DNA of 64,000 nt from Nymphaea colorata (Eukaryota > Streptophyta > Magnoliopsida > Nymphaeales > Nymphaeaceae). A program made the position numbers and the translations under genes. The stretch is from assembly GCF_008831285.2 (NCBI RefSeq), contig NC_045140.1:28290131-28354130 (forward strand), read 5' to 3'. Numbering within the stretch: the stretch's first letter is position 1; every line of letters starts with the position of its first letter. The notes beneath the pieces were generated by a model. That model had not been told where the DNA came from, ran no database searches, and was given only the letters and a program-made list of their open reading frames with translations. Below, in pieces: positions 1,461-63,010 of this stretch.

Positions 1461-1508
1461 CAGAAACACGAACAGTGAACACACACAGGGAGAAAAAAAG
1501 AGAGAGAG

Positions 1509-7601: not shown

Positions 7602-8280
7602 CACCTTGCGATCATTAAAACAGGGAGATTTGGAAACCATTTTTTAGCCGTGACCTCAAATATGAGCATCACATTTCTCATTCTTTTGATGCAGGCATTA
7701 GAATTTGACGACGACTATCCAGTAAAGGGCAATCTTTACCATTGTCTTTTTAACTCTAGGTACGCTGGTAGTTGAGAAAAAGACAGGGTTTTTGTTTTCT
7801 TGCAAAAATTATGTTGAAACACATAATTTTGTGGCGCAGTAAGATGAGTTCAACCGAAAAGAAAAATAACGTTGAAATCCAAAATGTTTGCGGTCATCCA
7901 AGATGACACGGTTTGACTTGTGACCTTCTTCTTTGTAACACTTGTCTAACAAGGCATGACTAATACCAGAAACATCAGAAAATTAAGTGCCATTTTTAGG
8001 CGGCAAAATTCCATGGCTTTAATGGTGTTAAAATCTTTAAGAACTGGCTAATTCTGATCAAACCACTCTTTGACCGGATCCCATGGATCTCATATTTGGT
8101 GAGCACCAAGGTGATCTTCAAGAAACCGAAATTCAGGCCTCCGGTGGGCGGCGCCTGTCTTTAAATTTCTAGAGATGTATAGGTCTTCTTCTTCTTCTTC
8201 TTCTTCTTCCTCCCCGTCGTCCTCCTCCTGAGCCTTCTCCACCTGTAAATTATCATCCATCTTTGCCATCTGCAATCGAA
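7602..8280. other. Spacer and probable leader of the UGT gene
   Basis: No gene recognised. A cttcttctt run at 8187-8213 followed by a pyrimidine-rich stretch lies just before the UGT start and is probably its leader. Confidence 0.5.
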
Positions 8281-20062: not shown

Positions 20063-20114
20063 GGTTTCAGGTGGGAAGTGCGGGAGCAAATGAGGGATGT
20101 AGGGAAGCCCCCTT

Positions 20115-20121
20115 CTTTATA
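20115..20121 (-). promoter_or_regulatory. Candidate TATA box of the WRKY gene
   Basis: Minus-strand TATAAAG, about 53-59 bp upstream of the WRKY start codon. It would imply a short leader. Placement is by motif only. Confidence 0.5.
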
Positions 20122-35146: not shown

Positions 35147-38100
35147 TCAATCCTCCGACACAAAATTTGTAAGAACCTTACGGACTAGATGCTCCCCATA
35201 CATCTTTGGCTCAAATATTGCAACCCGACCAGTCTTCTCCTTGCAGAAATCGAAAGGTTCTACAGCTGTGTCAAAGTTTGGCTGAAAGTGAAAGTCAAAG
35301 CTCACCAGTCAATCAAATTATGTACCACTACCATGGGCAACCTTTCAAAGAACGTAACCGCCAACAAGGACAAAAGATACTTAAGTCCTCTGTCATTTTT
35401 ATACGATTCAACCTACATGATAAGTCGAAATTGAGACCTATGCATGTTCTGTCGATGCATCGAGGTCAAGCTTCTTGCTTTTTACACCTGACATGGTGGC
35501 TGCAGATTCAGCTCTGGCCATGCATCCATACACAAACATGGTTGATATGAAGCTAACAACATGTTTTGGCTCGACTGATTTAATTGAACCTAGATAGCTA
35601 AGCGCCCAAAATCCTTGTGGACAATGACAGTTTAAATACTTGAAGGCAAGTTCTACCAACACAGTGTATTTGAATTGTTGGACACTGATCAAAGTTGAAG
35701 TACTAACCTCATAGAAAAATGCTATGGAAACCCGATACTTGGAGCTGTTATTGGTCACTCTATGCAATGTGGTCTCATATAAACCGTTTGAATAGGCCTG
35801 AGAATAGAAAAGGGTTTCAATCAACCAGAAGTCAGATCAGGTCCATATACATTGCAGAATGATTAAGCAGGAAGATTGAGGCAAACCTTTAGCATATCTC
35901 CTATGTTGCAGACAAATGTTCCAGGGACAGGAAAGGCCCATATCCATTCACCAGATCGGTTCTTTACCTATAACAGAACTAAGTGAAATTACCTTTAAAG
36001 AACTAAAGCAGTATAGGACATGGGTCATTCATTGGACAATTTCGCTGAATGATCATCGAAGTTTTTTCTTCTTAAAATGTTAATGTCAGCTCTATAAGTT
36101 GCTCCTTCTAAGCACTCAATAAAAAAGAAACGAAAAGGGAAACGATATAAGGTGCTGTATCCTATAATTTTGAAACTAAACCTTCAACAATATAAATCTG
36201 CTGATTTGTTGATAAAAGATCATCCTAGAAATGGAGATGGATGACCAAGGGTTGATGCTTGACTTCCATTTCATTAAGAATTACAAGCTATATATCAAAC
36301 TGAAACCATCTAGCTGAGACCCAAAACAAGTAATTGTTGCATAACAGATCATGAAAATAAATCACCTATCCGATTTGCAAATGCATTAGTGTAAGGGCCC
36401 CAGGCCCCAGTTATCATTATGGAACATACTAAGCTCTCTTTCCTGCGTTAATAGATGCCCACTCATGAGATTTGTATCATGACACCTTTCTACCTTGTTG
36501 ATGTTTATGATACTTCTTACCAGATGAGTGGTACCCCTGTTGGCACCATTAAGTAGACTAACCATCTAAAACATATGGATGTCTGGATGGAAAAGCATAA
36601 TCTTTAGAGTAAGAAATATCTTCAGAACTCAAGGATGAAAATTACCTGTAACGCAGTGATATCATCATCTTGATTTACCAAAGTCAGTAAACCTATATTC
36701 CAAGAAAATGATTAAATAGCTGTGACTAAGTAGGACAAAAAAATATCAATCTCTGAAGTGATGAGACCAGGAAACTACCATAGTCGGTATGTGCTCCACT
36801 GAATTTGTCGACAGAGAAAAACAGGGTGAAACATTAGTGGGACAGGAGATCATAAAAGCAATATATACTTCATTGTTCTTAATATTTACCATCCAACACC
36901 ATCATCTTGCATTTCCTCAGCAGAGCCAGGATAACCAATTAGGCGCATTCCCCAAAAAGTGTCTCCAGCTATTTTACCTTCAAATGCATATGGAGAACCA
37001 CCCAATGCTAAAGCTATTCCCCGCAGAAGGTTTTTTGAAAGTTCTGTACGTCATGGATAATAGTACAAAGTAAAACAGCTGAAAAATCTGAAGTATTATT
37101 TTTCAAAATAGTAAATCCATTCCATGCACGCAGGCCACATGCTGCTGAACATTGACATCTTGCCTTTTACAGCATTTATATACCCTTCAATTAATGGTCG
37201 GAAATCTGAGGGATTCTCAGGCCTGCAGATAAAATTCACAAAAAATAAAAAGGTTTCCAAAGTTGATTTGCAAACATAACTTTCCTGCAAAAATGAGGTA
37301 AATGAAACAGTAATTGACCACTCAAGAGTTGCTAATAGGCATGATAACACAAAAAATCACAAAAGTTGCTATGATGAATAGTTTAAAGATATGATAACTA
37401 ATTTGTTCTTTGCATATGGGAATGCGGCAATTTCACATCATTGCTTTCCTTTCTTGTGATGTTTCAGGACTTCAAGTACTCATTTGATGAATTTAATTTG
37501 AGCTGTGGATCACCATGGACATAAAAATATCCATATCAATAACTGGATGAATTCCAGGATTGAACCAAAAACGTGGATGACATGTTCCTATCTTTGATGG
37601 CATTGCAGTAGCAGGACTATAAACTAAAACATCTCTCTTCCCATGGCACTAAACACTTTTCCCCTCCCCAAGTATGCAAATGCAAGCAAACTTTACAGCT
37701 TATAGGAAAAGTTATATAATCCAATGTTATCTGTCTCGTACGATACGTATCGTATAGGTCGAAGAAACCTATACGTTACACTTGCGATACGCGATACGCT
37801 CGCGTATCGCCTGTATCGTACGATACAGGGAAAAAATTAAAAAGGGGCCCGAGGACCCCTTTTTGCATTATGTTCTAAAGACAAGCACTCTTCTCTCTCT
37901 CATTTCTTATTTCTAAATGCTGCAAGAGACGTGGGAGGGAGAGATTTTGCCCATTTTCATCAAAAATCACTAAGGATTCATCGATTTGGGAGACTCTAGT
38001 AGTTTGTGTATAAGCTTTCTCGTAGTGGGAACGGTGAGAAGCTTGGAGAAAGAGGGTTTTTTTGTTTCTAACACCAAGAAGGTAAAAAAATTTTCATTTT

Positions 38101-38602
38101 CACCGTTGAATCGTTCATTTCTCTTATTTCCTACAGTTAATTGTATGTTTTTACTTGTTTTGTGAAGATATAATGTCGGACCCTGCATGGCAGTGGTGTA
38201 CAAGGGTGAATCCCAAAGATAAGTTAAAAGTTATTTTTACTTATCATGTTATTTTGAATGTTTGATTTCTTAATGTGTTGTTCATACTTCATACTTCATA
38301 TACATGAATGTTCCTTTAAATACATTTTTCTTGATTTTTTCTTGTTTTTTCAGATTTTTTTGATTTTATATTTTTTTATATTTTTTAAAAAATAAAAAAT
38401 TAATTTTACGACACATTACGGTATGTTTAAGATACGTTACAATACGGCGTATAGGTCAGCCCAACCGATACTCGATACGCTACGCCTTTTATAACATTGA
38501 TATAAACATTACCAGAGATTTGGTCCTTCCATGACTGCACCAAGTTCTCCATAAGTACCAGGTTCCATAACCTTGTAACTCTGTTCCAAGAGAAGTTAGC
38601 AA

Positions 38603-38640
<38 letters not shown>

Positions 38641-41158
38641 GTGTGTATAAGAGAAGAAAAACAGAGATGCTATCCAAGACATACGTCAATTGCTTCATGC
38701 ATATCAGGTCTTCCCTGTGTTATGTTTTCTCCAACTCTCTGATATCCTCTGATCCAAGGAGAAACAAAAAACACCACAATTTATAGCCAACTAATGAACT
38801 CAGTGCATATAAGATGGGAGACACATACCTGAATCCAGTTGAAGATGACATTTTGATGCTGAGTTTCTCTGTATAAGGAAGATCAAAGAAGCTCCTTGTT
38901 GCATCCCTAACCCCTTTGTAAATAGAGTCAGGAATGCCATGACCTTTCTGGACAAGAAGAATCAACAGGTTAGAAAGAAAACAGCTTTCTGCACAACATC
39001 ATTGGCATAAAGATCTGATTCAATTCATTCAATCTTGTTCCCAGTTTCTTTACTCAGAGTCCACTCAGTACTAAAGCTCTGTTTCCTGAAGAGTTTGTTG
39101 TGAAAGAATATTGATAACACGATAGCAGCAGACACATACTAGCAAAAAGATAACCCCCCAGTTTTTATCAAGTCAATGACCTTCAGTAAATGGTTCACAA
39201 GTTCCCTGAATAAATATTTGAAATTCAGAAGATAACTATCTTTTGGCAGCCAAGCATTCGTAACGTTGATTTTTGACTACTAAGATTAGTTATCACCACC
39301 AACACCTTGGATCCCAGTTAAAGGAGCCTTTTTGCATCAAATGGCAGAACCAATTCATTTCTGACAAAGGTGACAGCAACCGAGTAAAGAGAATTACCAC
39401 ATAGAAAAAGCCAATCTCCTTGCAAGCCCTGTCTAACTGTCTGACAACCTCCAAGACACCTGAATCTTCAGCCATATTTGGATCACCACATTTTGCCAAT
39501 AGAGGTGCAACATCTAGCAAAGGAGAGGCAGAAAAGTACAAGGTGAAAAAAATATTAAGCAGAGCATTACATAATTTTTCTCATAGTGTGCCAGAAGGAA
39601 GTCTTCAGGAAAAAAGGTTGAAACCTACAGTGCCAACTTTAAAGGAAAATGGCCGTTGAAGTGGTAACAACTAAGAAGAGTGGAATTTTTCTGAAAATTT
39701 CAGCTGTGTTTGTTTCTGGTTGTACAAGTGGGTGACAATTCAACCCGTCCACCAAGCACAGAATACTTTTCAGTTTGATCTAATGGAACTTATGCATACC
39801 AAATACTGATAATTTCAATTTCACCAGTCCAACTACACAGATAGGACATGCAGAGTGCAACCAAGACAACAAAATGCAGGTGCTTGGGAACCCAACATAA
39901 TCTTGATAACTTAACCCTCAAATGCTAAGAACCCCAACTTCATTTATATCTATACTCGATACGGTGTAACCATTTACATGTTATAAGACAGATCAAACGT
40001 CAAATACAAGAACTCCAACTTCCTTTGAGTCTATAGCATATACTCGATATGGCTTAAATTTTGCCTTCTTATAAGACATATCATGCTGTGCTGCATATAC
40101 ATAACCAAATCATGAGCAGTCAACCAACTGTAAACATGGTAAAGGATTCTTCTACAAACCGCAGGAGTTGTTCGTCTCACACTGAACACATAACTTTATA
40201 TAATGGCTAGATATTATACTTATGTGTATATTCATCTAGTAAATTAAGACGACAAATGTAGGGGTGAGTGTGTGTTCGTGTAAAGTCCTAGACATGCTGG
40301 CTGTCTGGGGTCATCCAGCCTTTTCAGAATTTTGAGACTGCTTTTGATGGGTCCAATCGTATAGATGGTTTCTAAATGTCTAAAAATGTATTAATTAAGA
40401 AACAAGTGACGGAAGACCCATCTGCAGATTGGACTTTATATAAGGGTTTCCAATTCAACAGTCTTAATTTTGGTGGCTCCTAAATAAATTCATACGTGCA
40501 GTTAGATTTATCAAAAGTACATGAAAATACTAAACAGCGCGGTGGACGTAAAATTTGCATGAGGCCCAAGATTAAGATATACGACACTTCCCAAACCATG
40601 AGAAGATATTCAGGTATTAAAATGCCTGCATCTATTGCCCAAAGAAAACTGAAAAAATTAAGCCAAAACAGACTGCAGATTTAACTATCCTTATTCTCCC
40701 TGTTCACATCTCCACTCTAAACTCATAAATGTAGATTATGTCCACCCGTTGCACCCTCCCTAACCTCGTTTTTGACGCTCCTAACCTGTGCATCGTTCTT
40801 TCCCCTCCACGTTTGTGCCTATCCTAGTTTAAATTTCTGACCACATCGCTGCTTGAATCTGTAGTTATAGGCAACCGTGATTCATGCGGTACCTCTCCCA
40901 TTTCTACTCAAAACAAGATAAGTGGAAGTAGAAACCACGCAAGGAGAAAGGACTAAGTAAAAATGATTAGAAAAGCAGAATGGAGATAAACAAGTCATTC
41001 CACATTCCCGTGTTAATTGAGAGCCAATTCCAAAGACGTCGCGAGAAACACAAAACCCAAAAGGCAGAAACTGGATTCCTTTATGAAGAGGGACAGAAAG
41101 AGAGACAGAGATAGAGAGAGATACCGATTATCGGGATGGATTTAAAATCAGTAGCCAT
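35147..41158 (-). CDS. 2-oxoglutarate/Fe(II) dioxygenase, copy 1 (intact)
   Basis: DOXC-class 2OG-dependent dioxygenase of the Arabidopsis At3g50210/At3g49630 type, with an isopenicillin-N-synthase-like fold. It oxidises an unknown small substrate using 2OG, O2 and Fe(II). Twelve minus-strand exons join in phase: 41158-41125, 39513-39398, 38947-38829, 38748-38685, 38580-38513, 37222-37164, 37043-36890, 36798-36779, 36692-36646, 35967-35887, 35797-35708, 35281-35147, giving 328 aa. The N-terminal DIOX_N region spans [17 protein letters not shown] to GFFYVKGHGIP. Iron ligands are H208 and D210 (GAHTDYG) and H266 (TLHRVTNN); R276-x-S278 binds the 2OG carboxylate. Intron 6 uses a GC donor. A 778-bp cgatacg-rich element sits in intron 5. 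No stops or frame breaks; this is the most divergent of the three intact copies. Confidence 0.9.
37722..38499. mobile_element. Non-autonomous element with cgatacg subterminal repeats
   Basis: Both ends carry caatgttat as an inverted repeat (37722-37730 and 38491-38499). The first 110 bp and last 95 bp are packed with gatacg, cgtatcg and gtatcgtacgatac words in both orientations. The interior is AT-rich and non-coding. It lies in intron 5 of dioxygenase copy 1 and is absent at that position in copies 3 and 4. Dense subterminal repeats fit a hAT or Mutator-like non-autonomous element. A clear target duplication could not be set. Confidence 0.6.
38605..38638. repeat. (AT)n microsatellite
   Basis: About 17 AT repeats in intron 4 of dioxygenase copy 1, within 30 bp of the exon 5 acceptor (38580 side). 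Confidence 0.9.
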
Positions 41159-42179
41159 GACGAAAGGAGGAAGGGAGCCTAATGTTACTATGTTCTCACA
41201 TCTGCACGTTCAGCACTTCTGCACGTTTAGCACTTTCTAGAAACTGATCAGCCAGCGCTTCTTCCTCACACGATGGATCAGCATAGTGGGTGGTTTCTTC
41301 TTTCTCGCAGGATCAATATATCAGCACGTCTTTTTCACACGATCAGCCAGCCAGCAAGCACCACTCACACGATCAGCATAGTGGTGGTCTAGAAACATCT
41401 ATTTTAAGCAGTAAACCTACTCACAGCTTCCGCCCTCCGGTGGGGACGCACGACTAGATAGCGTGCCGATGGCGGCTACACTACAACACAGATTTTACAA
41501 ATTAGCACCAAGATTTTACCCTTTTATAGGCCCCCAGTCCCTCCACTTTTATTTTAATAAATTTCGAGTCAGATACGCCATTCTAAACGAGGAAATGGCA
41601 CTAAAATGCGAAGAAAAGCGTGCAGCACATATGGAGTTGGGGAACAGAACAAGTTGGCCCCATGGCCATGGAGCCAGGCCAAAGGCAGGAGCACATTTCC
41701 GCCCACATCCAGGTTCAAGCTAGTCTAACATGCTTACTTATAGGCTAAGCCGGGACTGTGAGAGACAGGGAGAGAGAGATTTAATGTTGGACAGGAGGGA
41801 GTGCACGATGTGCTAGGTGGTTCTTCACTTGGCACTCTTCACTCACCAACTGTTATGGCATGTTTGAGCGGAGCACAATATTAAGGATGTTTCCACGACC
41901 TTTTTCTCCTTCTATTATCTTGCACCATTGAGCTAATCGACCATGCCCTAGGATTGGCTGCCACCTGCTTTGTTGACTAGCCTCTCACTTATCTCTCTCC
42001 TCTCACTTGTTTGTTTTTTTTTTTTTTTTTCTTTGCCGAAATTCATAAGATTGGCGAACTACTTGTCACCGAATTCTTTCCTGCCTCTCAAACATTAGAG
42101 AACAAAAAAGAAAAGACAGAAAACAGTTTTAATAGGTCATGTTGGGAAGATATGATAGGAATTATGCGTTCGCAAATCT
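41159..42179. other. Intergenic spacer, copies 1-2
   Basis: Upstream flank of copy 1. Short cacacgatcagc words recur at 41270-41390. The part at about 41590-41820 is homologous to 47340-47550 (shared words aagttggccccatgg, aggagcacatttcc, gacaggagggagtgc), so the duplicated unit included intergenic DNA. Confidence 0.6.
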
Positions 42180-43996
42180 ACCACCCCAACAGAACCACAT
42201 CCATCTCTGAAAAGGCTGATGATGGAGTACCATCGTTGTTTCTGCTTATTACAAAGGCGAACAACAACTTGTTAAACCAATTTCAATACTTCATTCCAAC
42301 GTTCGCGTGGACCTTATCCAGTGCAAACAACTCACTATTGAAAATAAGAAAAAAATAAAATGTCTATATGTAAGTGATGAGACCTGGGAAGTACCATAGT
42401 CAGTGTGTGCTCCACTGGATTTGTTGAAACAGAAAGACAAAATGAAACATTAGTGACTCGTGGGAATGGCGAACTCAGAAAACCACTAATATATGCTTGA
42501 TAGTTCTGATTACTTACCATCCAACGCCATCTTCCAGCATTTTCTCAGTAGAGCCGGGATAACTATGTAACCGCATTGCCCATAAAGTGTCTCCAGCTCT
42601 TTCACTTTCAAAGGTATATGGTGAACCACCCAATGCTAAAGCTACCCTTCGAAGAATGTTTTTTGAAACTTCTGTACGTCATGGACAATAAAAACTCTTG
42701 CAAGGTAAAACAAATCAAGATCTGAAGTAATCAAAATAGTAAATCAATTGCAATTGCTCCTGAGAGCACGCTGCTGAATGTCAAATCTTGCCTTTTGCTG
42801 CAGTTATATACTTCTCGATTAATGGACTGAAATCTGCAGGTTTCTCGGGCCTGCAAGCAAAATTCACCGAAGTCCACTTTCAACAGGTGCGGTCCTGCAG
42901 AAGTATTCATGTGTTAGCTGTTTGAATATGAGAACAGAGAACTTTTTTCTTTTTCTTTTTTTCTGCAAATGCAAATGGTTAGAATTTTCCACACGACTTT
43001 TACCCCTTAAGTTTATATCACAGGACATCATATACTCATCTCATGGCTTCAATTTGAGCTACACCTCAGAGACGGAAATACCTGCATTAATTAGTGAATC
43101 CCAGGATTCAACAAAGACGTGAAGAAGTGGAGTTGCCCATCTGCGATGGGTGTCACACTTGTGAGAATGTAAGCTGAAACATATCTACATTGAGTCTCAA
43201 TAATTGACAAAGTCATTTAAAAGAAACTTCGTTCGGTGGCTTCTTGGCCATTGAAGGGATTTCCATCGCGAAATGAGAAGAGGAGATTAAGGCTTACTTC
43301 CCGCGTAAATTTATTTCCTCCATTCTCTCCTTCGCTCCAAATTTCACCAAACTGCATTCAAATTTAGGTTCTTGAGAAGAAAGTCCTTTTATCCCTCTCC
43401 CTACTAGGCGCACCTGTAAGTCATAAGAATGTATAGCAAAATTTAGGGATAATAAGTCCCCTAATCACAAAAATTGGGGAGTCATAGTTAATAAACCGCA
43501 GACAAAAACAAAAAACGAAATATAAAATATAACTCACAAAAAAAAACGAAAGAAAAGAGGGGGGAGAGATGTTGATGGATTTTTTAGTCAACGTGGCAAA
43601 AGAAGAAAATTTGAGAGCCTATACCATTAATTGCAATTTACACATACATTAATAGCTTCTTGCTTATCAAGTCAGCCGCCAGTCAAGTTTTCTCCAATTG
43701 TCTGATACACTCTCTGCTCCAAAGGAGAAACCAAAATAGAGATAAATTTATTGGCCAAAAGTGATTGGGAGATGCCACACCTAGGGGCGGACCCAAAATT
43801 TTCTTCAGGGGCGGGCCGACAGTCCAACCTCTGGATCCGGGTAGGGAGTGGGGCCATGGCCTAGGCGGCCCGCCCCCCTTCCCTTCACCCTGGCCACACC
43901 TGATCTTGACTTTTTCTTCATCAGGAAGACCAAAGAAGCGCCGCACAACATCCCTAACTCCTTCGCACATGGACTCGGAAATGCCATGCATTCTGC
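42180..43996 (-). pseudogene. 2OG dioxygenase, copy 2 (partial, broken)
   Basis: Recognisable minus-strand exons: exon 3 (start at 43992), exon 4 (43713-43648), exon 6 (42850-42792), exon 7 (42671-42518) and the 20-nt HxD micro-exon 8 (42414-42395). Exons 1, 2, 5 and 9-12 are missing. Near 42300 the flank that normally lies 3' of the stop codon runs straight into intron 8 sequence, marking a deletion of the whole 3' end. Exon 3 lacks two bases near its start and carries a ~120-bp insertion (43780-43899). Exon 4 has two extra bases at its acceptor. GC-donor sequence after exon 6 is kept. Clearly non-functional. Confidence 0.85.
43780..43899. mobile_element. Small GC-rich insertion in exon 3 of copy 2
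   Basis: About 120 bp starting aggggcggacccaaaatttt and ending in caccctgg is flanked on both sides by gccacacct, a likely 9-bp target duplication. Copies 3, 4 and 5 lack it. About 24 bp of exon next to the right flank are also missing compared with copy 3. The ggggcgga...aatttt start is common among hAT-type MITEs. Confidence 0.55.
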
Positions 43997-46405
43997 ATAA
44001 AAGTCACTTTATAGAGATCTTTTTGAATTCCTAATTTCTGTAGTCGTACTATCGTATTTTGTTTTGAAGGAACGTTTACGTAATTTTATGAATCATTTTA
44101 ACAAGTCAAAAAAATGTTTATAATTCATAAAAAAATTACAAGACAAAAAAAATTAAAGATTCAAGGTGTGTGTTATGATAATATATCTCTTTAAGCGATC
44201 ATTATTTTTTTTTATTTTTTAACTCTGCTCATAACATTATTCCATTATCTCATAAATATTTTATTATCTCATAAACATTATCTCATAGTTACGTTTAATG
44301 TTATCTTATATATTTGTTTATTATCTTATTAATTCATAAATATTTTATTATTTTATAAACATTATCTTATAATTATATTTAGCGTTATTTATTATAACCG
44401 CTGTTATCTTATTATCTCATAAAAAATATCTTTTATTTATTTGTTGTCTTAACTACATGCTGCATCTATATATTGATAGGAAGGTTCCTAGGTGGTGTAC
44501 GTACGCTCGTTACATACATCGTTACATACATGAATGAAATAGTTTGCTAAAACCCTTCTCATGAATCAGTTTGCTTAACTCTCCCGGTTACCTTAATTGG
44601 CTCTTTTTTGTTATCTAAAACGCCAAAAGATTGATATACTATGTATTTTTTAAAATGAACGACAACTAAGATATTCAGTTCACTATCAGGTTTAATCGTG
44701 AAGTTCGAATCAGGATCCATGTGCAGAATGGTTTCATTATCTCACTTCTCACTTTGAACCATAAAACCGTCACGGAGTTTGGTTTCTATTTCATGTAGAC
44801 CGAGCTTGAGTCAGCCCCATGTCAAACCATGCACAGGCTTATGATCCACTAGTTCAACGTGTATCACGGGCTTTTGAGGATCCAATCAAGCTTATACGAA
44901 TCTCAAAGTTGCATCATGTTTCCTATGCCCTAAAAAAAAAATCAAGTAAAAGAACACAAATGTGTTTTCTAAGCACCCGACCGTGTTGGATGTGTGACCA
45001 TAATTTAAATTAGATATACAATCAACGGTAAACTGAAATACAAATCCACATAGATATATAACTTTAGTAAATACTTGTTTTTTCAAGAATTATTTAGAGA
45101 AAATAGCCTCAATATTTGGATGTTTTACAAATAGCGCCAGATTTTGTGCTTTACCATTTGAGCACTTGGGTGCAAATTAAAAACTTTTTAGTTGGATTCA
45201 AAATTACAATTACACCCTCAAACAAAATGAAAACCCTTGCTCCGAAACCACGCTGTTGAATGGTTAAGTCACACTACTTCCAAACGAAGAATCATAGGTC
45301 GGCAGGAGAAACTCCATCACTATGGTGAGAAAGGGCCATGCCTCCTCTTTTCTCTTTTTCTCAGATTTAGAGGACCTACGTGAACTTACCAAACTCCAAC
45401 TCTATAATAACATCTGTCAACTTTTTGAAGTCTAAAAGAATAGAATCTATTGTAACATCTGCCATCTTCTCAAGTGAAGCCTAAAAGAATAGAATCGATA
45501 GTACCATCTGTCGAAGTCTAAAAAGAATAGAAGAGTGAATCAAATTAGTGACCAGACTTTTACCAACCTACCAGCTGCATCATTATGCTCCTTCTTAAGA
45601 ATTCAATTTACAAGGAATCAAATACCAATATAACTCCTTAAGAATTCAATTTACAAGGAATCAAATACCAAAAGAGGAGGTCGGCATCATCCAGGCGCAA
45701 GCGGAGATGCAACCTCAATACCACTTGGATTCCCTACTTGAAAGCTATGACGATTAACAAGTAAGTCAGCCACGCTAACCAAGCACAGCCCCCTCCCCTA
45801 CTTTCACAGTTTGCCTTCATTGCTGTTTCACTGAACATACTCGCGGCTGAAGGTTAGATGTTTTGCTCATTGATTTGGTTCACTTCTCTGTTCCAATTTA
45901 TTAGATGTTTTGCTCTGTACTTCCTGAGATCTAGGAATATAGTTTCAAGGACGGTGCTCACTTGGCTTTTAGGATAAAAGGGACCTACCCTTGCTCGATA
46001 TTAACATTTTCAATTATAACATGGAGCATATAGAAGAGAAGGAATTGTTTTCTTTCACGAAAAGAATCTACTGAATCCACTATTACTGTTAAGGCACATT
46101 CCTGCGCAGGTAAGGGATGTTATAGTGCCTCATCTAAAGAATCTTGGACAACATATTGCTAGGAACTGGAGAAACTGGAACATATGTAAGGCGCCTTTGT
46201 AAGTTGGAATTACATCAAAAATTAATTTAAATAATGGTGGAAAATTGCCTACTCGATAGGGAATTCCCAATCACTAAATCAACGCAAATGACACTTTTGG
46301 TCTCAGATCTGATCTAAAGTGGACTTCTCTGCGAACATAATCAAGCAGAGCAGGTATGGTTTTAACAGTTCACTGGAGCTTGGAAGGTTGATGTTCTCCC
46401 ACAAG
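43997..46405. other. Spacer between copy 2 and the GDSL remnant
   Basis: Contains what was probably intron 2 and upstream DNA of copy 2. 44580-45070 matches intron 2 of copies 3 (50620-51080) and 4 (56680-57195). The AT-rich attatctcataa stretch (44190-44440) is simple sequence. Degenerate repeats of taaaagaatagaatc occur at about 45405-45540. No gene recognised. Confidence 0.55.
45594..45673. repeat. 43-bp tandem duplication
   Basis: ccttaagaattcaatttaca and the following aggaatcaaataccaa occur twice, 43 bp apart (attcaattta at 45601 and 45644). Confidence 0.85.
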
Positions 46406-46419
46406 TTAAACCGGTTGTA

Positions 46420-46852
46420 TTGCTGATCTTCTACATGCTGTTTCTCGATCACATTTCAGATTTATGTTGGTCAAATAAACAGGTTGTATTACTGGTCCTC
46501 TACCTCCTCTTCTTCCTTCCTTCTTCAGGCTCCGGCAGGGTTGTTTTCCACTCAGCAGAGAAGAAGAAGAACGTGCCGCCCCTGTTCGTGTTCGGGGACT
46601 CGATGGTGGACAACGGGAACAACGTCTTCCTTCCGAACCCAGAAACCAAGTTCGATTTTCTGCCTTATGGGGTGGACTTTTGCGGAGGGTCCTACAGGGA
46701 GGCTCACCAACGGAACGAGCAGATGTCATGACCCAGCTGCTCAACCTCCCTGCCGCAAGGGACCCTCGGTCTAAGGGGGAGCGCATCCTCAATGGCGTCA
46801 ATTATGCCTCCGGTGGTTCCGGAATCCTCGACCGCGTTCCTGATATCGTGAG
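46420..46852 (+). pseudogene. GDSL esterase/lipase 5' remnant
   Basis: Opposite in strand to the dioxygenases. A hydrophobic signal-like stretch (VVLLVLYLLFFLPSSGS) is followed by PPLFVFGDSMVDNGNN, block I of plant GDSL lipases with the nucleophile Ser in GDS, then FDFLPYGVDF. The continuing homology changes frame twice: GPTGRLTNGT is in one other frame and DVMTQLLNLPAARDP, KGERILNGVNYASGGSGILD in a third. A donor-like gtgagt follows at about 46847. Blocks III and V, with the catalytic Asp-His, are not found downstream. It is a truncated, frame-broken copy of a secreted lipase gene. Confidence 0.8.
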
Positions 46853-47805
46853 TTTCTATTATCTTCTTCTTCTCTAATTGGCTAGCACTTCTTAATCGTG
46901 GGTCTTTTTCTGCTGGGTGATCTTCATGTTATTTGGATGTTGAGAGGTTAATACATTTCACTTATTAGGGGAAGGTTACTGTTTTCCGCTCAGTTGATCA
47001 TGAACTTGAGGACCTTCCATGTCTGTCTTGCCTGTTGATCATTTTCACAATTGCTTTCCGTTACCAGTTTCTGGAGGATTTACACGCTGAATTAATCTCT
47101 CAAAGGGATGATGTTCCATCAGGTTTTCTGACCCTGATTTTTTTTGCATCATGCCTACATGTTTATGCAGTGGCCTTACTGGGAAGAGTAGTACTGCAAA
47201 TTTTATTAAATTTTGCATGTCATTGGCTAACGTTTTACCGAGTACTTTTTTGTTTATTACAACTAGTCAGACAGAGAGATTTTGTCGGCTGCTTGCACTC
47301 ATCTGCAACAATGATACTGATAAGCTACGCAATTTGCATTGTCCAGACAAGGAAATGGCCCCAAAATGTGATCGAAGAGCGTGCAGCATAGATGGAGACG
47401 GGGAATATAACAAGTTGGCCCCATGGAGCTAGGACAAGAGTAGGAGCACATTTCCACCCACACCCAGGCTCAAGCTAGGCTAACATGTTTAGTTAGAGGC
47501 TAGCCATAGTGAGAGAGAGGCTTAATGTTAGACAGGAGGGAGTGCTCGAGCCCACTTGTGTAGAGTGAACAACTTATCACCCAATTATTTTCCTCTCCCA
47601 AACATTAGAGAACAGAAAAGAAAACAGTAAATAGACAGAAACGAGTTCTACTACGTCCTGTTGGGAAAGATACGATAGGGATTACAAAAGTGCAACACAT
47701 CTACCACACCGACACAACCACATGCATCTCTGGAAAAGCTGATGATGGAGCACCATCATTGCTTCTGCTTATTAGAAAGGCGAATAAGCACTTGTTACAC
47801 CAAGT
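46853..47805. other. Intergenic spacer, copies 2-3
   Basis: No gene. The stretch 47140-47400 recurs at about 53160-53340 and 58610-58850 (ggccttactgggaagagta and following), and 47340-47550 recurs at 41590-41820. It is part of the duplicated unit. Confidence 0.6.
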
Positions 47806-50800
47806 TCAATGCTTCATTCCATAGGTCTCGTGCATCTTGCGGACTAGATACTCCCCATGCATCGTTGGCTCAAACTTTGCAACCCCTCCAGTCTTTTCCT
47901 TGCAGAAATCCAAAGGTTCCACAACAGCGTCAACGTTCGTCTGAAAGAGAAAACCAAAGCTTTACCAGTCAATAGAATCATCTGCTGCTAAGAAAATAAA
48001 AGGCCAAAGGTTGAGTCCTATATCCCTTTTTATGGCGTTCAACTTACAAGGAAAGTTCAAGTTGAGATCTAGGCATGTTTTCTGACCAAGGCAGCCAGCA
48101 CAGGCTTTCTGCTTTCTAGATGCGTTAAGTGAACCTATTCATCTAATGTGTTCAAATACAGCCCCTTGAAGGCAGTCATGATTTCTGCTTAAGGCGAATT
48201 TTACCAACACACAGGACTTGTCTTGAGGAAATGAAAATACGTGGAAGTACTAACCTCATAAAAGAATGGTATCGAAACCCGATCATTAGGGCTGTGATTG
48301 CCCACTTTATGAATTACGCTCTCATATATGCCATTTGAATAGGCCTGAAAATTAATGAAAAAGGATTTATATCAAGCAAAAGTCTCATCGAGGACATTGC
48401 AGAAGATTGAGCAGGAAGACTGAGGCAGACCTTTAACATATCCCCTATGTTGCAGAGAAAAGTTCCAGGGACAGGCAAGGCCCACATCCATTCACCACAT
48501 CTGTTCATTGCCTACAACCGCATGAAAATGCGAAGAAAAGTTCAAATTTCCTTTCATTAGGTAGTTTGAGCCATCTAAAAACATGCAAGCTTTTATGGAT
48601 AGGCTAGATTTTTATTAGTAACAAATATTTTTAGAGTCGGTGTGCAAATTTTTACCTGGAATGCAGGGATTTCATCGTCTTGATTTACCACAGTCAATAG
48701 ACCTAATCTCCATTAAATTTTATCCCGTGCAAACAACTCAGTATTGAAAATTAAAGAAAATAATATATATATATGTAAGTGAAGAGGCCTGGGAAGTACC
48801 ATAGTCAGAGTGTGGTTCACTGGATTTGTTGAAACAGAAAAACAGAATGAAACATTAGTGACTAGTGAGAATGGAGAACTCAGAAAACAAACAATATATG
48901 CTTGACAGCTCTTATGGTTTACCCTCCAACGCCATCTTCCACCATTTTCTCAGTGGAGCCGGGATAACGAATTAACTGCATTGCCCAGGAAGGGTCTCCA
49001 GCTCTTTCACCTTCAAAGGTGTATGGTGAACCACCCAATGCCAAAGCTATCCCTCGAAGAATGTTTTTTGAAAGTTCTGTACGTCATGGACAACAGAAAA
49101 CTCTTCCAAGGTAAAACAACTAAAGATCTGTATTCAAAATAGTAAATCAATTGCATTGCTCCTGAGAGCACGCTGCTGAGTGTCAAAATCTTGCCTTTTA
49201 CCGCACGTATATACTCCTCGATTAATGGTCTCAAATCTGGAGGATTCTCGGGCCTGAAAGCAAAATTCACCGAAGTCCACTTTCAACGGGTGCGGTCGTG
49301 CAGAAATATTCATGTGTTAGCTGTTTGAATACGAGAACAAATAACTAATTTTTTCTTCTGCACATGCAAATGGTTTAGATTTTTTCCAACTTCTTTTCGC
49401 CATTAAGTTTATGTCCTACGACATCATAGACTCATCTCATGGCTTCAATTTGAGCTACAGGTCCTACCGCAGAGACGGAAATGCCTGCATTAATTAGTGA
49501 ACCCCAGGATTCAACAAAAACGTGAAGAAGTGGAGTTGACCATCTGCGATGGGTGTCACACTAGTGAGAACGTAAGCTGAAACATATCTACATTGAGTCT
49601 CAATAACTGGTAAAGTTATTTTTCGTTCGGTGGCGTCTTGGCCATTAATTAATGGGATTTCCATAACGAGATGAGGAGAGGAGATTAATGACTAATCCTT
49701 ACTTGCGGCCTAAACTCCTAATTTCACCACAGTGCATTCAAATTTAGCTTCTTGAGAAGAAAGGCCCTTTTACCCCACTTCCTACTAGGCCCAATTTTCT
49801 CAGTGAAGATTTAGTACCAAGTTTATAGCACACAGGAAATCCATATACACATTACCACAGGTTTGGTGCTTCCAAGGCCGCAGCGACGGCTCCATAAGTG
49901 CCGGGTTCCACAACCTTGTGAAACTGTTGAAAACAGGAGCACACAGAGAGACAGAGATGGTTAATGAATTTTCTCGTGAACCTGGCGAGAGAAGAAAATC
50001 TGAGAGCCTACATTTTTAATTACACATACATCAATAAATTCATGCTTATCAGGTCTGCCGCCAGCCAATGTTTCTCTCATTGTGTGATATCCTCTGTTCC
50101 AAGGAGAAAGGAAAACAGAGGTAAACCGATGGGCCAAATAATGAACTGAGTGAAAGGGAGATGCCACACCTGAATCCAGTCGATGGAGACAGTTTGATCT
50201 TGAGCTTTTCTTCATCAGGAAGACCGAAGAAGCTCCGCGCAACATCCCTAGCTCGTTTGCACATGGACTCCGGAATGCCATGACCTTTCTGCACAAGTAA
50301 ATCAGCAGATTGGGTTCTGCTTCTGCCTAAAATTCACTTTACAGAGATCTGATAGAATTCCTAGCTTCTGCACTCATCATATGTCAACTAAAAAAAGTCT
50401 CTTGCTGTATTTTGTTTCTAAAGGATATGCGCGATAACATAACCAAAGAATACGCATAGATTACATTATAAACTAGAGCAGCAGTAACATGCTGGTGAAC
50501 AGTAGAAGGCACCTTCAGTTTTCATTAAGCTCAGCCGGCAAGGCCGGGCTAAGATCAAGCTCGGGCCGGTGGTGGACCCTGTCCGACCTCATCTGGAGCC
50601 CGTCTTATGAACCAGTTTGGTTAACTGAACCCGGTTACTTTATTGGTTCTTTTTTGTTATCTGAAACGCCAAAAGTTCGATATACTATGTATTTTTGAAA
50701 ATGAACGATAACTAAGATATTCAGTCTTATTATCAGGTTTAATCGTGAACTTCGAATTAGGATCCATGAACAGAATGGATCCATTATCTCACTTTGAACC

Positions 50801-52830: not shown

Positions 52831-53573
52831 GGCGAGAGGTCGAAGAGATGCAGTAATCGCAGTCGATGATTTCGTTCTCCTACAGGGCTGGAGCTACGCT
52901 GCTTGAGGGCATAAATAAGGTCGGCATGGCGCGCAGTAGCCCTGGTGTCGGCAGTGTCGTCATAAATCTTACTGTAACGTTTCAAAATTACATTGTAAAT
53001 TACGTGCGGCGCTTACACCAAACTTAAAGATTACGTGCGCTTCTCGATTACGAAATCATGGATCCACATTGGTGTTCCTCGTGTTTTAATCACAAGCCAC
53101 CATATTTTGATAAATTTCTCCTTCCCAGGGGACCTTTTGCATTAGTTAACACCCTGTCTGATTTTCTGGCATCATGTTTACAGATTTAACTGGGAAGAGT
53201 AGTACTGCAAAGTTGAATATTTTTTGCACGTGATTGGCTGACGGTTTTCTGACTATTTTTTTGTTTTCTACCACTAGTCGACTGAAATCTTATCGGCTGT
53301 GGACTCATTTGCATCCCTGGCACTGACAAGCTACAGAATTTGTCATCCTCTTCTTTTCCTCTCTCCCAAACATTAGAGAACAGAAAAGAAAACAGTAAAC
53401 AGACAGAAACGTGTTCAAGGACGCCCTCTTGGGAATGACACGATAGGGACTACGCAACTGCAACTGGCAGCCTTTCCCACATCTACCACACCGACAAAAC
53501 CACATGCATCTCTGAAAGGCGGACGATGGAGCACCATCATTGCTTCGGCGAATAAGCACTTGTCACACCAAGT
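52831..53573. other. Intergenic spacer, copies 3-4
   Basis: Only about 0.74 kb separates the copy 3 start codon from the copy 4 stop codon, so the copy 3 promoter must lie here. Homologous to 58236-59041. No gene. Confidence 0.6.
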
Positions 53574-56500: not shown

Positions 56501-58235
56501 GAATACGCATGATTACATTATAAAGTCGAGCAGCAGTAACATGCTGGTGAACAGTAGAAGGCACCTTCAGTTTTCATTAAGCTCAGCCGGCAAGGCCGGG
56601 CTAAGATCAAGCTCGGGCCGGTGGTGGACCCTGTCCGACCTCATCTGGAGCCCGTCTTATGAACCAGTTTGGTTAACCTAACCCGGTTACCTTATTGATT
56701 CTTTTTTGTTATCTAAAACGCCAGAAGTTTGATATACTATGTATTTTTGAAAACTAATGATAACTAAGATATTCAGTCTTATTATCAGGTTTGATCGTGA
56801 ACTTCGAATTAGGATCCATGAACAGAATGGATCCATTATCTCACTTTGAACCACAGAACTGTTGGCGGAGTTTGGTTTCTATTTCATGTTGACCGAGCTT
56901 GGGTCATTCGGGATGCCGAGCTCAGTCCAATGTCAAACCATGCATATGCTTATCAGCCACTAGTCCAACATGAATCATGGGCTTTTGAGGATCCAATTAA
57001 ACTTATATAAATCCCAAAGTTGCATCATATTTCCTATGCCCTCAAAAAATCAAGTGAAAGAACACAAATGTGTTTTGTAGGCACTCGACCGTGTTGAATG
57101 TGTGACCTGAATTTAAATTAGACATGCAATCAACGGTAAGCTGAAATTCAAATCCACATAGATATATAACTTTAGTAAACCTTTGTTTTTTCAGGAATTA
57201 TTTAGAGAAACTAATGGATCACATACATTTAATGAAATTTGGATCCCGTTGAACCGAATTAATTTGATAAAAGAAATCTAGATTTGATTATAAATCAGAT
57301 TTAGACTTGACTGCAGTTGCATAACAAAATTTACAGAGTCACGTAATTAGGGCTGCACAATGAGTTGAGTCAACTGGAACTCGACTCAAACTCGTTTGTC
57401 AAAACTCTACTCGAGCTCAACTCATTTATAAACGAAACAAGCTCAAGTCCAAACGTATGCTCGAAATGTTAAACAAGTTGAGTTCTCGGCTCGACTATAT
57501 AGTGAACGTTGAATTGTAATGAGACAATAGTTACAGGATAGCAACTAAACAAGTTAACGAGCTAAACGAAACAAGACTTGCTTAACAAAAATGAGTTAAA
57601 CGAGTCAAACTCGAGCTCAATGTTGTATCGTCGAGTCGAGCTCGAGCTTGTTCTATCCAACTTGAGTTTTCTGAGTCGATCAAGTTAGTTCAAATCTAGC
57701 TCTGCTTTACTCTTGTGCAGCCCTACTGGTAATTAATTGAGATGCAAAAAAGTCAGAGACAAATACATCAAAAGCCTAGTCGGATCCAAATTAAATTTTC
57801 AAAAGTAAAAAAAAGTAAGGCATCCGATCATGTCGAAATTAACCACAGTTATTGAGTTATTGGCATCGCTTAAAAGCATGTCACGAGACAGAGAACAACA
57901 TCTTCATATTTGCCTTCTTCAAAATAACCAACTCATTTTATTTCCTACGTCAAGGGAATGTTTTCCTTTTCCAATTTCAGTTAACTCGAGTGAGATAGGA
58001 ACTAATCAGCAAAGAGAATTACCACATAAAAGATGCCATCTTCTCTGCAGGCCTTGTCTAACTGCCTCACAACCTCTAACACGCCTGCATCTTCTCCCAT
58101 CCTCGGATCTTCACATTTCTCGAGTAGACGCCCTACATCTGCGAAAAAGAAAGTGCCTTCGGTATATATAATTATATATATGAGAAGAAGAGGGAGAGCG
58201 AGAGAGATACCGATTATGGGGATGGATCTAGCCAT
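53574..58235 (-). CDS. 2-oxoglutarate/Fe(II) dioxygenase, copy 4 (intact)
   Basis: Twelve exons in phase: 58235-58211, 58138-58023, 56346-56228, 56151-56088, 55981-55914, 55019-54961, 54842-54689, 54583-54564, 54466-54420, 54274-54194, 54117-54028, 53708-53574, giving 325 aa. It starts [17 protein letters not shown] and ends GMKH. The iron motif reads CGAHTDYG (H205, D207), the second His is H263 in AFHRVINN, and R273-I-S275 fits the RxS 2OG motif. These match the family consensus better than copy 3, so copy 4 is the likelier active partner of this recent pair. The GC donor after exon 6 is kept. Intron 5 (exon 5 to exon 6) carries a private ~365-bp foreign patch (55091-55457). Confidence 0.9.
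55091..55457. other. Foreign patch in intron 5 of copy 4, possibly organelle-derived
   Basis: Compared with copy 3 (about 49320-49440), intron sequence after catgtgttagctg is replaced by about 365 bp of more GC-rich DNA, rejoining at cttcaatttgagctacagg. It includes ggggctagcgctgcttat and a variant gcgctagcgctgcttat as direct repeats, and gtagcttgcttcaaatc / gctagctgcttcaaaa. The style recalls plant mitochondrial intergenic DNA, but I recognise no organelle gene in it. Confidence 0.4.
57349..57724. mobile_element. MITE in intron 2 of copy 4
   Basis: Ends agggctgcacaa and ttgtgcagccct form perfect 12-bp terminal inverted repeats. The interior is made of gagtcgag, actcgagc and ctcgagctt words. 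It is the ortholog of 51231-51574 in copy 3. The hAT-like gggctgcac end is common in angiosperm MITEs. Non-coding. Confidence 0.75.
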
Positions 58236-59041
58236 GGTGAGACGTCGAAGAGATGCAGCAATGGCAGTCGACTATTTCGTTCTTAAAAGACAACACGCGC
58301 ACAGGGATGGAGCTACACTGTTTGAGGGTATAAATAAGGAAGGCATGGCGGGCAGTCGAATTGTAGCGCCTGCTGCAGTAGCTCTGCCGCTGCGTTGGCT
58401 GGTGTCCGCAGTGTCGTCATAAATCTTATTATAATGTTTCAACTTCCATGACCATGTCATCAAATCAAGCTTATTTCGCCAACTCAGGTGGTTCTTGATT
58501 AAAAAATCATGGATCCACAGTGGTGTTCCTCGTGTTTTAATCACAAGCCACCATATTTTGATAAATTTATCCTTCCGAGGGGTCCTTTTGCATTAGTTAA
58601 CTACCTGATTTTCTGGCATCATGTTCACATGTTTATGTAGTGGCCTTACTGGGAAGAGTACTACTGAAAAGTTTAATATATTTTGCACGTGATTGGCCAT
58701 CGTTTTACTGAGTAGTTTTTTGTTTTTTACAACTATTCGACTGAGAGATTTTGTGGGCTGCTTGCTCTCATTTGCGACCCTGATACTGACAAGCTACACA
58801 ATTTGCATTATTCAGTAAGAGAACAAGTCAGACAAGGAAATTGCTCTAAAATAATAGATTGACAGAAACGAGTTCTAGTACGTCCTGTTGGGAAAGACAC
58901 GGTAGGGATTACAAAACTGCAACTGGGCGGCGCCTTGGCACAGCTACCACACCGACATAACTACATCCATCTCTGGAATGGCTGATGGTGGAGCACCATC
59001 ATTATTTCTGCTTATTACAAAGACGAATAAGCACTTGAAGT
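58236..59041. other. Intergenic spacer, copies 4-5
   Basis: Promoter side of copy 4. 58600-58980 repeats spacer sequence found before copies 3 and 4. No gene. Confidence 0.6.
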
Positions 59042-61738
59042 TCAATGCTTCATTCCATAGGTCTCGTGCATCTTGCGGACTAGATACTCCCCATGCATCG
59101 TTGGCTCAAACTTTGCAACCCCTCCAGTCTTTTCCTTGCAGAAATCCAAAGGTTCCACAACAGCGTCAACGTTCGTCTGAAAGAGAAAACCAAAGCTTTA
59201 CCAGTCAATAGAATCATCTGCTGCTAAGAAAATAAAAGGCCAAAGGTTGAGTCCTATATCCCTTTTTATGGCGTTCAACTTACAAGGAAAGTTCAAGTTG
59301 AGATCTAGGCATGTTTTCTGACCAAGGCAGCCAGCACAGGCTTTCTGCTTTCTAGATGCGTTGAGTGAACCTATTCATCTAATGTGTTCAAATACAGCCC
59401 CTTGCAGGCAGTCATGATTTCTGCTTAAGGCAAATTTTACCAACACACAGGACCTGTAATGCAGGGATATCATCTTTTCTTGATTTATCACAGTCAATAG
59501 ACCTAATCTCCATTACATTTTTTCCCGTGCAAACGAAATAGTATTGAAAATTAAGGAAAATAAAGTGTATATATGTAAGTGATGAGACCTGGGAAGTACC
59601 ACAGTCAGTGTGCTCCACTGGATTTGTTGAAACAGAAAAACAGAATGAAACATTAGTGACTAGTGGATCAGAAAACGACAGTTCTTATGGTTTACCATGC
59701 AACCCCATTTTCCAGATTTTTTCTCAGTAGAGCCGGGATAACTAAGTAACCGCACTATCCAGAAAGTGTCTCCAGCTCTTCCACGTTCAAAGGCAAATGG
59801 TGAACCTCCCAATGCTAAAGCTATCGCTCGAAGAATGTTTTTTGAAAGTTCTCTATGTCATCAGCAGTAGAAACTCTTACAGGGTAAAAAAACCAAAGAT
59901 CTGAAGTAATCAAAATAGCAAAGCAATTGCATTCCCCCATAGAGCAAGCTGCTGAATGTCAAAATCTTGCCTTTTACAGCATTTATATACTCCTCAATTA
60001 ATGGTCTGAAATCTGCAGGATTCTCGGCCTGCAAGCAAAATTCACCGACGTCCACTTTCAACAAACTTTCCCGTGCATGATATTAGATGAAATAAAGATT
60101 CAGAATTCATCTAACCCACCAGAATTGCTGATAGATTGCAACAGGTGCGGCCGGTGCAGAGATATTCATGACAGTCAGCTGTTTGAATATGAGAACAGAG
60201 TTTTTTTCTTCTGCATATGCAAATGGTTTTGATTTTTTCACACGTCTTTTCCCCCTTAAATTTATTTCCTAGGACATCATATACTCATCTCATGGATTCA
60301 ATTTGAGCTACGGATCCTACCGCAGAGACAGAAATACCTGCATTAATTAGTGAATCCAGGATTCAACAAAAACATGAAGCACAATAATTGGTAATGTCGT
60401 CTAAAAGAGACTTGGTTCTGTGGCTTCTCGGCCATTGAAGGGATTTCCATCACGAGATGAGGAGAGGAGATTAAGGGCTAATCCTTACTTCCTGCGTAAA
60501 TTTATTTTCTCCATTCTTTCCTTCCCTCCAAATTTCACCACAGTGCATTCATATTTAGCTTCAAGTTTCTTTCAGCTCCCCTCCCTACCAGGCGCAGTCT
60601 TGCACACAAGAACGGGTCCGAAGTTTATAGCATATAGGTAAATCCATATACACATTGCCACAGGTTTAGTCTGTTGGATAGTGGCCACTCAGCCCTATCC
60701 GAACATCTCTGCAGTTGCGAGATTAACTTGAAAACGGCTTACAAATGAAGGACAATTGTCAATAAATAAATATTTATCTTTACCTGTTTTCTCTCCGTAA
60801 AACTCTCGTACCTTAACCGCCCGCTGAGCTTCGGGAAAACCTATGAGGCTATGCCCAGCAACTCTCTGTTTTAGGGTTCAATCCCTCGGTTGATTTCCCT
60901 TAGAAGAACCTCATAGAAGGAAACTCCAGAATTATCACTTCCTTCTGTTTTGTTTTACTTCTCCTTCTTCTTCCCCTGTGGTGAACCTGCTGCGCAGACA
61001 CGAGCTGCTTCAGGCCACCGTTCCGCTGCTGCTTCACTTCCCAACATCAGCGGAACGGTGGCCTGAAGCAACTCCTCGTCTGCGCAGCAGGTGCACCATC
61101 GGATGCTCTAGGCGAGCGTCTGTAGGCAGAGACAGAGAAAGAAGAATAAGAAGTAAAACAAAACAGAAGGAAGTGATGATTTCTGGTTTCTTTGTATGAG
61201 GCTCTTCTAAGGCAATCTACCTAGAGATTGAACCCTAAAACAGAGAGTTGCTGGGCATAAATAGACCAGCCTCATAGGTTTTCTTGAAGCCCAGCGGGCG
61301 GTTAGGGTATGAGAGAGTTTTGAGGAGAGAAAACAGGTAAAGATAAATACTTCCAAGGTAGCACCAACGGCTCCATAAGTACCGGCTTCTACATCCTTGT
61401 AAATCTGTTGAAAACAGGAGTGCACATGGACAGGAGAGGCGGATGGTTAATGAATTTTCTCGTGAACCCAGCAATGGAAGAAAATCTGAGAGCCTATATT
61501 TTTATCAGGTCTGCCGCCAGTCAAGTTTTCTCCAATTCTCTGATATCCTCTGTTCCAAGGAGAAGGAAAAACAGAGCTGAACTTATTGGCCAAAGAATGA
61601 ACTGAGTGAAAGGGACGCCTGAATCCAGTCGATGGCGACAGCTTGATCTTGAGTTTTTCTTCATCGGGAAGACCGACGAAGCTCCGCGCAACATCGCAAA
61701 CTCGTTCGCACATGGACTCCGGAATGCCTTGACCTTTC
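59042..61738 (-). pseudogene. 2OG dioxygenase, copy 5 (broken)
   Basis: Exon 12 (59176-59042) is intact and identical to that of copy 3. Exons 10 and 11 are deleted, with the junction near 59452. Exon 9 (59502-59454) is 49 nt against 47. The HxD micro-exon (59617-59600) has 18 nt against 20, so the iron motif is lost. Exon 7 (about 59850-59696) and exon 6 (60028-59971, 58 nt against 59) also carry indels. Exon 5 is split by a 679-bp insertion (60672-61350) and its donor reads GC. Exon 4 (from about 61551) has lost its donor end. In exon 3 (61738-61620) the HGIP motif reads QGIP and the donor is GC. Exons 1 and 2 were not found. Certainly non-functional. Confidence 0.9.
60672..61350. mobile_element. 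679-bp insertion with long fold-back in copy 5
   Basis: It sits inside exon 5 of copy 5 (between ggtttagtc and ttccaagg). The inner part is a large inverted repeat: arms 60771-61028 and 61048-61349 around a 19-base loop. The 22 bases beside the loop match exactly; farther out the arms are closely similar with a few extra blocks in the right arm. The 100 bp before the left arm begins tgttggatagtgg, an LTR-like start, so a rearranged LTR fragment is possible. No coding capacity; family unresolved. Confidence 0.75.
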
Positions 61739-62959: not shown

Positions 62960-63010
62960 GTCTTACACTTTATGTGCTGATTCGGGAATGCCATGACCTT
63001 TGTGTTCTGC
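62960..63010 (-). pseudogene. 2OG dioxygenase exon 3 fragment (copy 6)
   Basis: The minus strand encodes [11 protein letters not shown]-like sequence, the start of exon 3, followed upstream by intron-like sequence matching that beside copy 2 (ctgcataaaagtcactttatagag). Only this short end remains, cut off from the rest of the exon. Confidence 0.65.

Follow-up and report, generated by a model that had tools for sequence, protein, structure and literature searches.

The 64,000-nucleotide stretch of Nymphaea colorata DNA analyzed here (the window; NCBI RefSeq assembly GCF_008831285.2, contig NC_045140.1, positions 28,290,131 to 28,354,130 of the forward strand) carries a tandem array of genes for Fe(II)/2-oxoglutarate (2OG) oxygenases, which is probably best explained as a birth-and-death array of a 2-ODD-C23 gene with gene conversion, composed of one conserved founder and recent duplicates. 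In total the array comprises seven copies and one relic, and intact reading frames are present in four of the copies (1, 3, 4 and 7). A preliminary description of the window listed five copies and a further fragment at 63 kb; all of these are present, but the array does not end there. It is cut by the end of the window, and the next 20 kb contain a complete copy 7 (in L089, C3:28354131-28364130, the 10-kb stretch adjoining the window end) and a broken copy 8 (in L090, the second 10-kb stretch on the high side). They were found in tblastn searches with copies 1 and 4 as queries of ten flanking 10-kb stretches, two on the low and eight on the high side; in the other eight stretches tblastn detected no array copies, and three of these eight contain runs of N. 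The array has expanded recently, as that description claimed. This is an ordinary gene-family expansion, of an enzyme family that is itself unusual and that has by now a known function.

The gene models and lesions, the tracts shared between copies, the differences in selection and the residue losses all come directly from the sequences. Copies 1, 3 and 4 can be spliced with consensus sites into 12 exons each, giving proteins of 328, 325 and 325 aa with a single terminal stop, which reproduces the complete reconstructions proposed earlier, including the coordinate 35147. The lengths of exons 2 to 12 are identical in the three copies; ten of the eleven introns are of the GT-AG type, the exception in each copy being intron 6 (GC-AG). 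Copy 7 splices to 325 aa and keeps all 12 exons together with the GC donor. The intact copies differ pairwise at 46 to 217 of 975 aligned coding bases (4.7–22.3%) and the broken ones have lesions of their own, which rules out an assembly error as the source of the array; chance similarity is ruled out as well, because most exon matches lie far above the reversed-exon controls.

Pfam searches identified the DIOX_N (E 3e-24 to 1e-27) and 2OG-FeII_Oxy (E 1.5e-16 to 3e-21) domains in copies 1, 3 and 4. These three copies and copy 7 carry H208-x-D210, H266 and R276-x-S278 (copy 1 numbering; HSD and RVS in copy 3), so that the HxD, His and RxS ligands noted earlier in the first three are all present, and the two domains and the metal triad with RxS are those expected of DOXC-type Fe(II)/2OG oxygenases. 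The best relatives among solved structures are the reconstructed EFE-lineage ancestor Anc357 (9ovh, E 3e-64) and PaIPNS (6jyv, E 5e-54); a C23 enzyme is named in none of the matches listed (60 of 70) in that search. From the sequence features discussed below we infer that the array genes fit the 2-ODD-C23 clade (At3g50210/Din11). Their At3g50210 label is presumably correct. In Arabidopsis the clade is made up of At3g50210, At3g49630 and Din11/At3g49620, and like the array genes its members are Fe(II)/2OG oxygenases of subfamily C (PMC11018352). The family was called poorly understood in the preliminary description, which is out of date: the At3g50210-type enzymes were shown in 2024 to be homoarginine-6-hydroxylases, and according to the same report C6 hydroxylation of homoarginine with release of guanidine is common to all C23 proteins analyzed, those of rice and soybean among them, with a longer variant of Din11 reported as not inducing guanidine release in E. 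coli (PMC11018352). One C23 gene is reported for rice (2-ODD33), one for soybean and three for Arabidopsis (PMC11018352), as opposed to seven copies and a relic, with four intact frames, in the present array. A literature search on homoarginine and tandem duplication returned no paper, and the word "tandem" is absent from the main text of PMC11018352, which does not prove that C23 tandem arrays are absent from the literature.

For comparison with bacterial relatives, a genome scan with the three copies and two solved-structure segments as the query yielded at least 572 relatives. The best 80 were kept, each of which gave an open frame of more than 270 aa, and a crude 85% rule then removed ten near duplicates, so that 70 remained. 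The same scan queried with the three copies alone gave 78 pattern matches and no relative. Copy 1 matches Din11 at five of the seven positions compared (Y217, T238, C301, K345, V346, T348 and T349, given in PMC12329707 for the 2OG and substrate pockets, in a register set by spacing, not by structure), the exceptions being C301 and T349, and one of its matches, T322, is a residue that the bacterial relatives do not commonly have. Pseudomonas EFE and Anc357 belong to the same sequence family as the array genes and share with them the Fe and 2OG ligands and, in copies 1, 3 and 4, a Glu at position 97, the place of the arginine-substrate contact Glu84 of EFE. However, natural EFE and its variants are distant from copy 1 (E 1e-20 to 1e-18), and EFE itself was ruled out as the family of the array genes because its arginine contact Arg316 is not kept (its place is taken by T322 in copy 1 and by E, V and A in copies 3, 4 and 7, respectively). 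The PaIPNS-type bacterial oxygenases have the same metal and 2OG residues and show 34–41% identity in the best segment (80 loci), but PaIPNS is described in PMC12329707 as being without known function, and the place of Glu97 in the bacterial relatives is occupied mostly by Gly (37 of 70; Asp in 12).

The array members differ in the constraint under which they evolve. Several exploratory tests were made, and their P-values are uncorrected. Purifying selection on copy 1 is strong: the ratio of nonsynonymous to synonymous substitution rates (omega, dN/dS) on its branch including the stem is 0.24 (twice the log-likelihood difference, 2dlnL, from omega of 1: 63.7), compared with 1.01 for copy 3 (grid interval 0.5–2.2) and 0.70 for copy 4 (grid 0.2–10). 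When exon 12 is left out, the values are 0.21, 0.91 and 1.85 (grid 0.3–10 for the last), respectively. The dN/dS check suggested in the preliminary description thus returns a ratio near 1 for copy 3 and not for copy 1, and omega alone does not place copy 4; a ratio near 1 is not found in all three intact copies, because of the value for copy 1. A second yardstick is provided by the introns. The amino-acid changes unique to copy 4 number 11 vs 25.3 expected from the introns (P 0.005) and those unique to copy 7 19.5 vs 33.3 (P 0.03; jointly P 1.3e-4), and copy 3 has 42.5 vs 22.9 (P 0.002). Over eight filter settings the observed/expected ratio is 0.25–0.69 for copy 4, 0.39–0.67 for copy 7 and 1.06–2.61 for copy 3. 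The excess of copy 3 over its introns depends on the intron filter, but its contrast with copies 4 and 7 (P 3e-6; 1.5e-6 to 2.7e-4 in all eight settings) does not. The introns thus show copies 4 and 7 to be constrained, whereas copy 3 evolves without detectable constraint on its residues. The earlier statement that the array is under selection therefore stands for copy 1, on omega, and for copies 4 and 7, on the intron yardstick, but not for copy 3. Between copies 3 and 4 the changes cluster in exons 4–5 (18 vs 9.5 at the intron rate, P 0.009), but the cluster is not significant when the coding sequence is scanned (P 0.23).

Copy 3 also stands apart in its family-invariant residues. Forty columns are invariant in all 70 bacterial relatives, and copy 1 keeps 35 of them, copy 4 keeps 34 and copy 3 keeps 27. 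Relative to the 35 of copy 1, eight are lost in copy 3 (F47, T100, G130, R187, G206, T209, L226 and R267), and copies 4 and 7 lose one each, F47, the change of which is thus common to all three. Copy 3 carries R187Q and Y312H (copy 1 numbering) at the places of R171 and Y306 of EFE, again in a register set by spacing; the bacterial relatives have Arg at the former place in 70 of 70 cases and Tyr at the latter in 61 of 70. According to PMC11025135, R171 of EFE holds the C1 carboxylate of 2OG and its R171A variant forms no 2OG chelate chromophore, the Y306A variant loses arginine binding, and both variants are catalytically compromised. Every Fe ligand, R276 and S278 are retained in copy 3, which has Gln and His instead of the 2OG-orienting Arg and the Tyr of a working C23 member. 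Judged by these residues, copy 3 probably lacks the ancestral activity. The "three intact genes" of the preliminary description are three intact frames, but one of them, with 8 of 35 invariant residues lost and with R187Q, probably does not have the ancestral activity; the failure of copy 3 on family-invariant residues makes an intact reading frame insufficient to call a gene intact.

Several tracts point to exchange between the copies. Copies 3 and 5 share an identical stretch of 325 bp that comprises exon 12 together with a part of intron 11. It is a probable gene-conversion tract as judged from the alignment: the two copies are 79% identical in the lower flank and 96% in the 95 bp above the tract. 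Copy 4 is 92.3% identical to the tract, and in the lower flank it is 87% identical to copy 3 and 75% to copy 5; its identity over the tract is nearer to the flank value for copy 3, which leans towards copy 3 as the donor without settling the matter. A 107-bp tract of exon 7 of copy 3, which includes the R187Q codon, is identical in copy 8, and over the whole exon the two copies are identical at 153 of 154 positions, with one inserted base, a pattern compatible with transfer in either direction. Exons 10 and 11 of copy 8 are closest to copy 4 (80/81 and 89/90), and exon 12 is closest to copy 7 (133/135). The array is therefore a mosaic, which weakens any single tree. Copies 3 and 7 are also alike in their 3' flanks, with 86% identity over about 2.2 kb. 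Between copies 2 and 3 there is a gene fragment on the plus strand, and the 2.2-kb flank that contains it recurs beside copy 7; by its motif this fragment looks like the start of a GDSL-lipase gene, and Pfam gave no match for it. As to age, copy 1 is separated from copies 3 and 4 by 1.73–1.87 neutral changes per codon, compared with 0.28 between copies 3 and 4. Expressed per site, the former distance is about 0.6 and smaller than the Ks (about 0.9) given in PMC7015852 for the Nymphaealean genome duplication; as the methods differ, this comparison is a rough one.

The exon-by-exon comparison agrees with the earlier view that copies 2 and 5 are broken and that a further fragment lies at 63 kb. 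In copy 2, exons 3 (partial), 4 (with one in-frame stop), 6, 7 and 8 are recognizable, and of exon 12 the final 33 nt are all that is left (27 identical); exons 1, 2, 5, 9, 10 and 11 were not recognized by exon matching. Copy 5 retains exons 3 (with a GC donor), 4 (3' end deleted), 5, 6, 7 (+1), 8 (2 nt short, a weak match), 9 (+2) and 12, and the same matching did not recognize exons 1, 2, 10 and 11. Its exon 5 is cut by a foldback-type insertion, with outer arms of 40 nt that are 93% complementary and with more arms nested inside. In the relic at 63 kb, exon 3 is represented by its first 23 nt (21 identical; score 38 vs 26 for the reversed-exon control), and the relic also includes a flank, with 188 bp showing 80% identity to the corresponding part of copy 2. 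Exons 3 (+1 base), 4, 7 (+1 base), 10, 11 and 12 of copy 8 are retained, and its remaining exons were not recognized by exon matching. In comparison with copy 4, the ratio of nonsynonymous to synonymous changes (N:S) in the pseudogene pieces is 22:5 plus one stop in copy 2 and 23:10 in copy 5, resembling that of copy 3 (42.5:11.5).

Based on these observations we propose the following scenario. Copy 1 most likely encodes a cytosolic Fe(II)/2OG oxygenase of the ancestral type, in which H208, D210 and H266 would bind Fe, R276 and S278 would hold 2OG and R187 would orient it, and which is predicted to hydroxylate homoarginine at C6, yielding guanidine and 2-aminoadipate semialdehyde. A gene like copy 1 would have been duplicated, and repeated unequal exchange and gene conversion would then have produced the younger copies 2–5, 7 and 8. 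Copies 4 and 7, with frame, active site and a reduced rate of amino-acid change kept, are probably working; copy 3 has kept its frame without constraint on its residues, and copies 2, 5 and 8 are dead.

A number of findings weigh against this scenario. The assignment to C23 is drawn from residues, compared with the bacterial relatives and with the positions published for Din11, and from the label given in the preliminary description. Four of the five Din11 matches of copy 1 (Y191, T215, K319 and V320) are usual in the bacterial relatives too (70, 70, 61 and 60 of 70), so that only T322 speaks for the clade and the residue test discriminates weakly. Glu at position 97 also says little, as it occurs in 14 of the 70 bacterial relatives, and copy 7 has Gln there. 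Unlike Din11, copies 3, 4 and 7 carry Pro at 280, and they match only four of its seven positions each; they also differ from copy 1 at 320, 322 and 323. Since these positions lie close to the site of 2OG or of the substrate in EFE/Din11, the substrate of the three copies may differ. When copy 7 is added to the selection analysis, the joint omega of the tips of copies 3, 4 and 7, whose branching order is poorly resolved, is 1.03 on the best tree (2dlnL vs 1: 0.01) and 0.87–0.88 on the other two, i.e. not below 1 (95% intervals from 0.6–1.4 to 0.7–1.7, depending on the tree). Taken alone, copy 4 is non-significant on the intron yardstick in three of eight settings (P 0.41, 0.11 and 0.066) and copy 7 in one (P 0.14). 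Finally, the frame of copy 3 outlasts the neutral prediction: intron rates predict 6.5–10.7 exon indels, 3.2–3.8 splice hits and 2.1–3.6 stops per pair of copies 3, 4 and 7 (the pairs are not independent), and the exons of these copies are free of indels and stops, with no splice site lost (copies 3 vs 4: 0 exon indels, 6.5 expected). This suggests that the frame of copy 3 was preserved over a large part of the lifetime of this copy, or that change in a working frame was favored by selection.

The latter possibility belongs to a different explanation, namely that copies 3, 4 and 7 oxidize a substrate other than homoarginine, as Din11 of Brassicaceae took on arginine, and that copy 3 is under positive selection. 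We regard it as unlikely. It would account for the intact frames, for the changes at 97, 98, 280, 320, 322 and 323, all of them close to the site of 2OG or of the substrate in EFE/Din11, and for the excess of changes in copy 3 over the intron expectation in six of six filtered settings (ratio 1.77–2.61; P 7.7e-5 to 0.0032). However, the ratio for copy 3 drops to 1.06 and 1.12 (P 0.79 and 0.59) in the two settings that omit the intron filter, and the N:S between copies 3 and 4 is 55:19, i.e. the neutral 3:1 (P 0.89). Moreover, the changes of copy 3 at conserved sites are no rarer than expected by chance (8 vs 5.9 at 95% conservation, 7 vs 3.9 at 100%), and R187Q is found also in the dead copy 8. 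The new "specialised oxidation" suggested in the preliminary description is not borne out by our analysis.

Conversely, copies 3, 4 and 7 could be transitional pseudogenes on their way to the state of the three young copies out of six that are already broken, with copy 1 as the only working gene, a view that we consider rather improbable. It agrees with the joint tip omega on the best tree, and stop-free frames are by themselves unremarkable under neutrality (P 0.13–0.16 for copy 3 and 0.39–0.46 for copy 4 in simulations), but it does not agree with the amino-acid changes of copies 4 and 7 below the intron prediction, with their retention of 34 of the 35 invariant residues, or with three copies free of exon indels, stops and splice losses.

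Outside the array, the window contains pieces of a Glycosyltransferase family 43 gene in two frames (Pfam E 2e-11 and 1e-29), an open frame of 519 aa for a UDP-glycosyltransferase (Pfam E 2e-24), and a 262-aa open frame without a Pfam match, which resembles the N-terminal part of group IId WRKY proteins. The coordinates of all features are collected in Table 1.

Table 1. Features of the array and its surroundings (positions in the window unless stated otherwise; exons listed from high to low coordinates)
Feature	Position	Strand	Basis
Copy 1, complete 12-exon gene, 328 aa, conserved founder-type	35147..41158	-	splicing, Pfam, omega ~0.24
Copy 1, exons 1-6	41158-41125, 39513-39398, 38947-38829, 38748-38685, 38580-38513, 37222-37164	-	
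Copy 1, exons 7-12	37043-36890, 36798-36779, 36692-36646, 35967-35887, 35797-35708, 35281-35147	-	
Copy 2, pseudogene (span approximate)	41900..45110	-	exon comparison
Copy 3, intact 12-exon frame, 325 aa	47806..52830	-	splicing, residue and selection comparisons
Copy 4, complete 12-exon gene, 325 aa	53574..58235	-	splicing, residue and selection comparisons
Copy 5, pseudogene	59042..61737	-	exon comparison
Relic of a further copy	62979..63190	-	exon 3 start and flank matching copy 2
Copy 7, complete, 325 aa	L089 6489 to 2310, past window end		tblastn and splicing
Copy 8, mosaic pseudogene with insertions	L090 2728-7067, past window end		exon comparison
325-bp tract identical in copies 3 and 5	47802..48126 = 59038-59362		alignment
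107-bp tract of copy 3 exon 7 identical to copy 8	48931..49037		alignment
Foldback-type insertion in copy 5 exon 5, ~585 bp	60768..61352		inverted-repeat arms
Gene fragment between copies 2 and 3	46366-46877	+	
Glycosyltransferase family 43 gene pieces	1479-3034	+	Pfam
UDP-glycosyltransferase open frame	8173-9732	+	Pfam
262-aa open frame	19331-20116	-	

It is tempting to go further and to suggest that an early-diverging flowering plant has expanded the guanidine-releasing C23 family independently of Brassicaceae, with copies 4 and 7 altered in their substrate (positions 280, 320, 322 and 323, and 97 in copy 7) and with a fast-changing, catalytically altered copy 3 that keeps its frame, in parallel to the switch of Din11 from homoarginine to arginine; this proposal is tentative and unlikely to hold as a whole. 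With a birth-and-death array as the preferred explanation, the expansion of C23 outside Brassicaceae, which may well have been independent, would offer natural variants of the substrate site, and the array would provide a series within one species that leads from conserved to dead copies.

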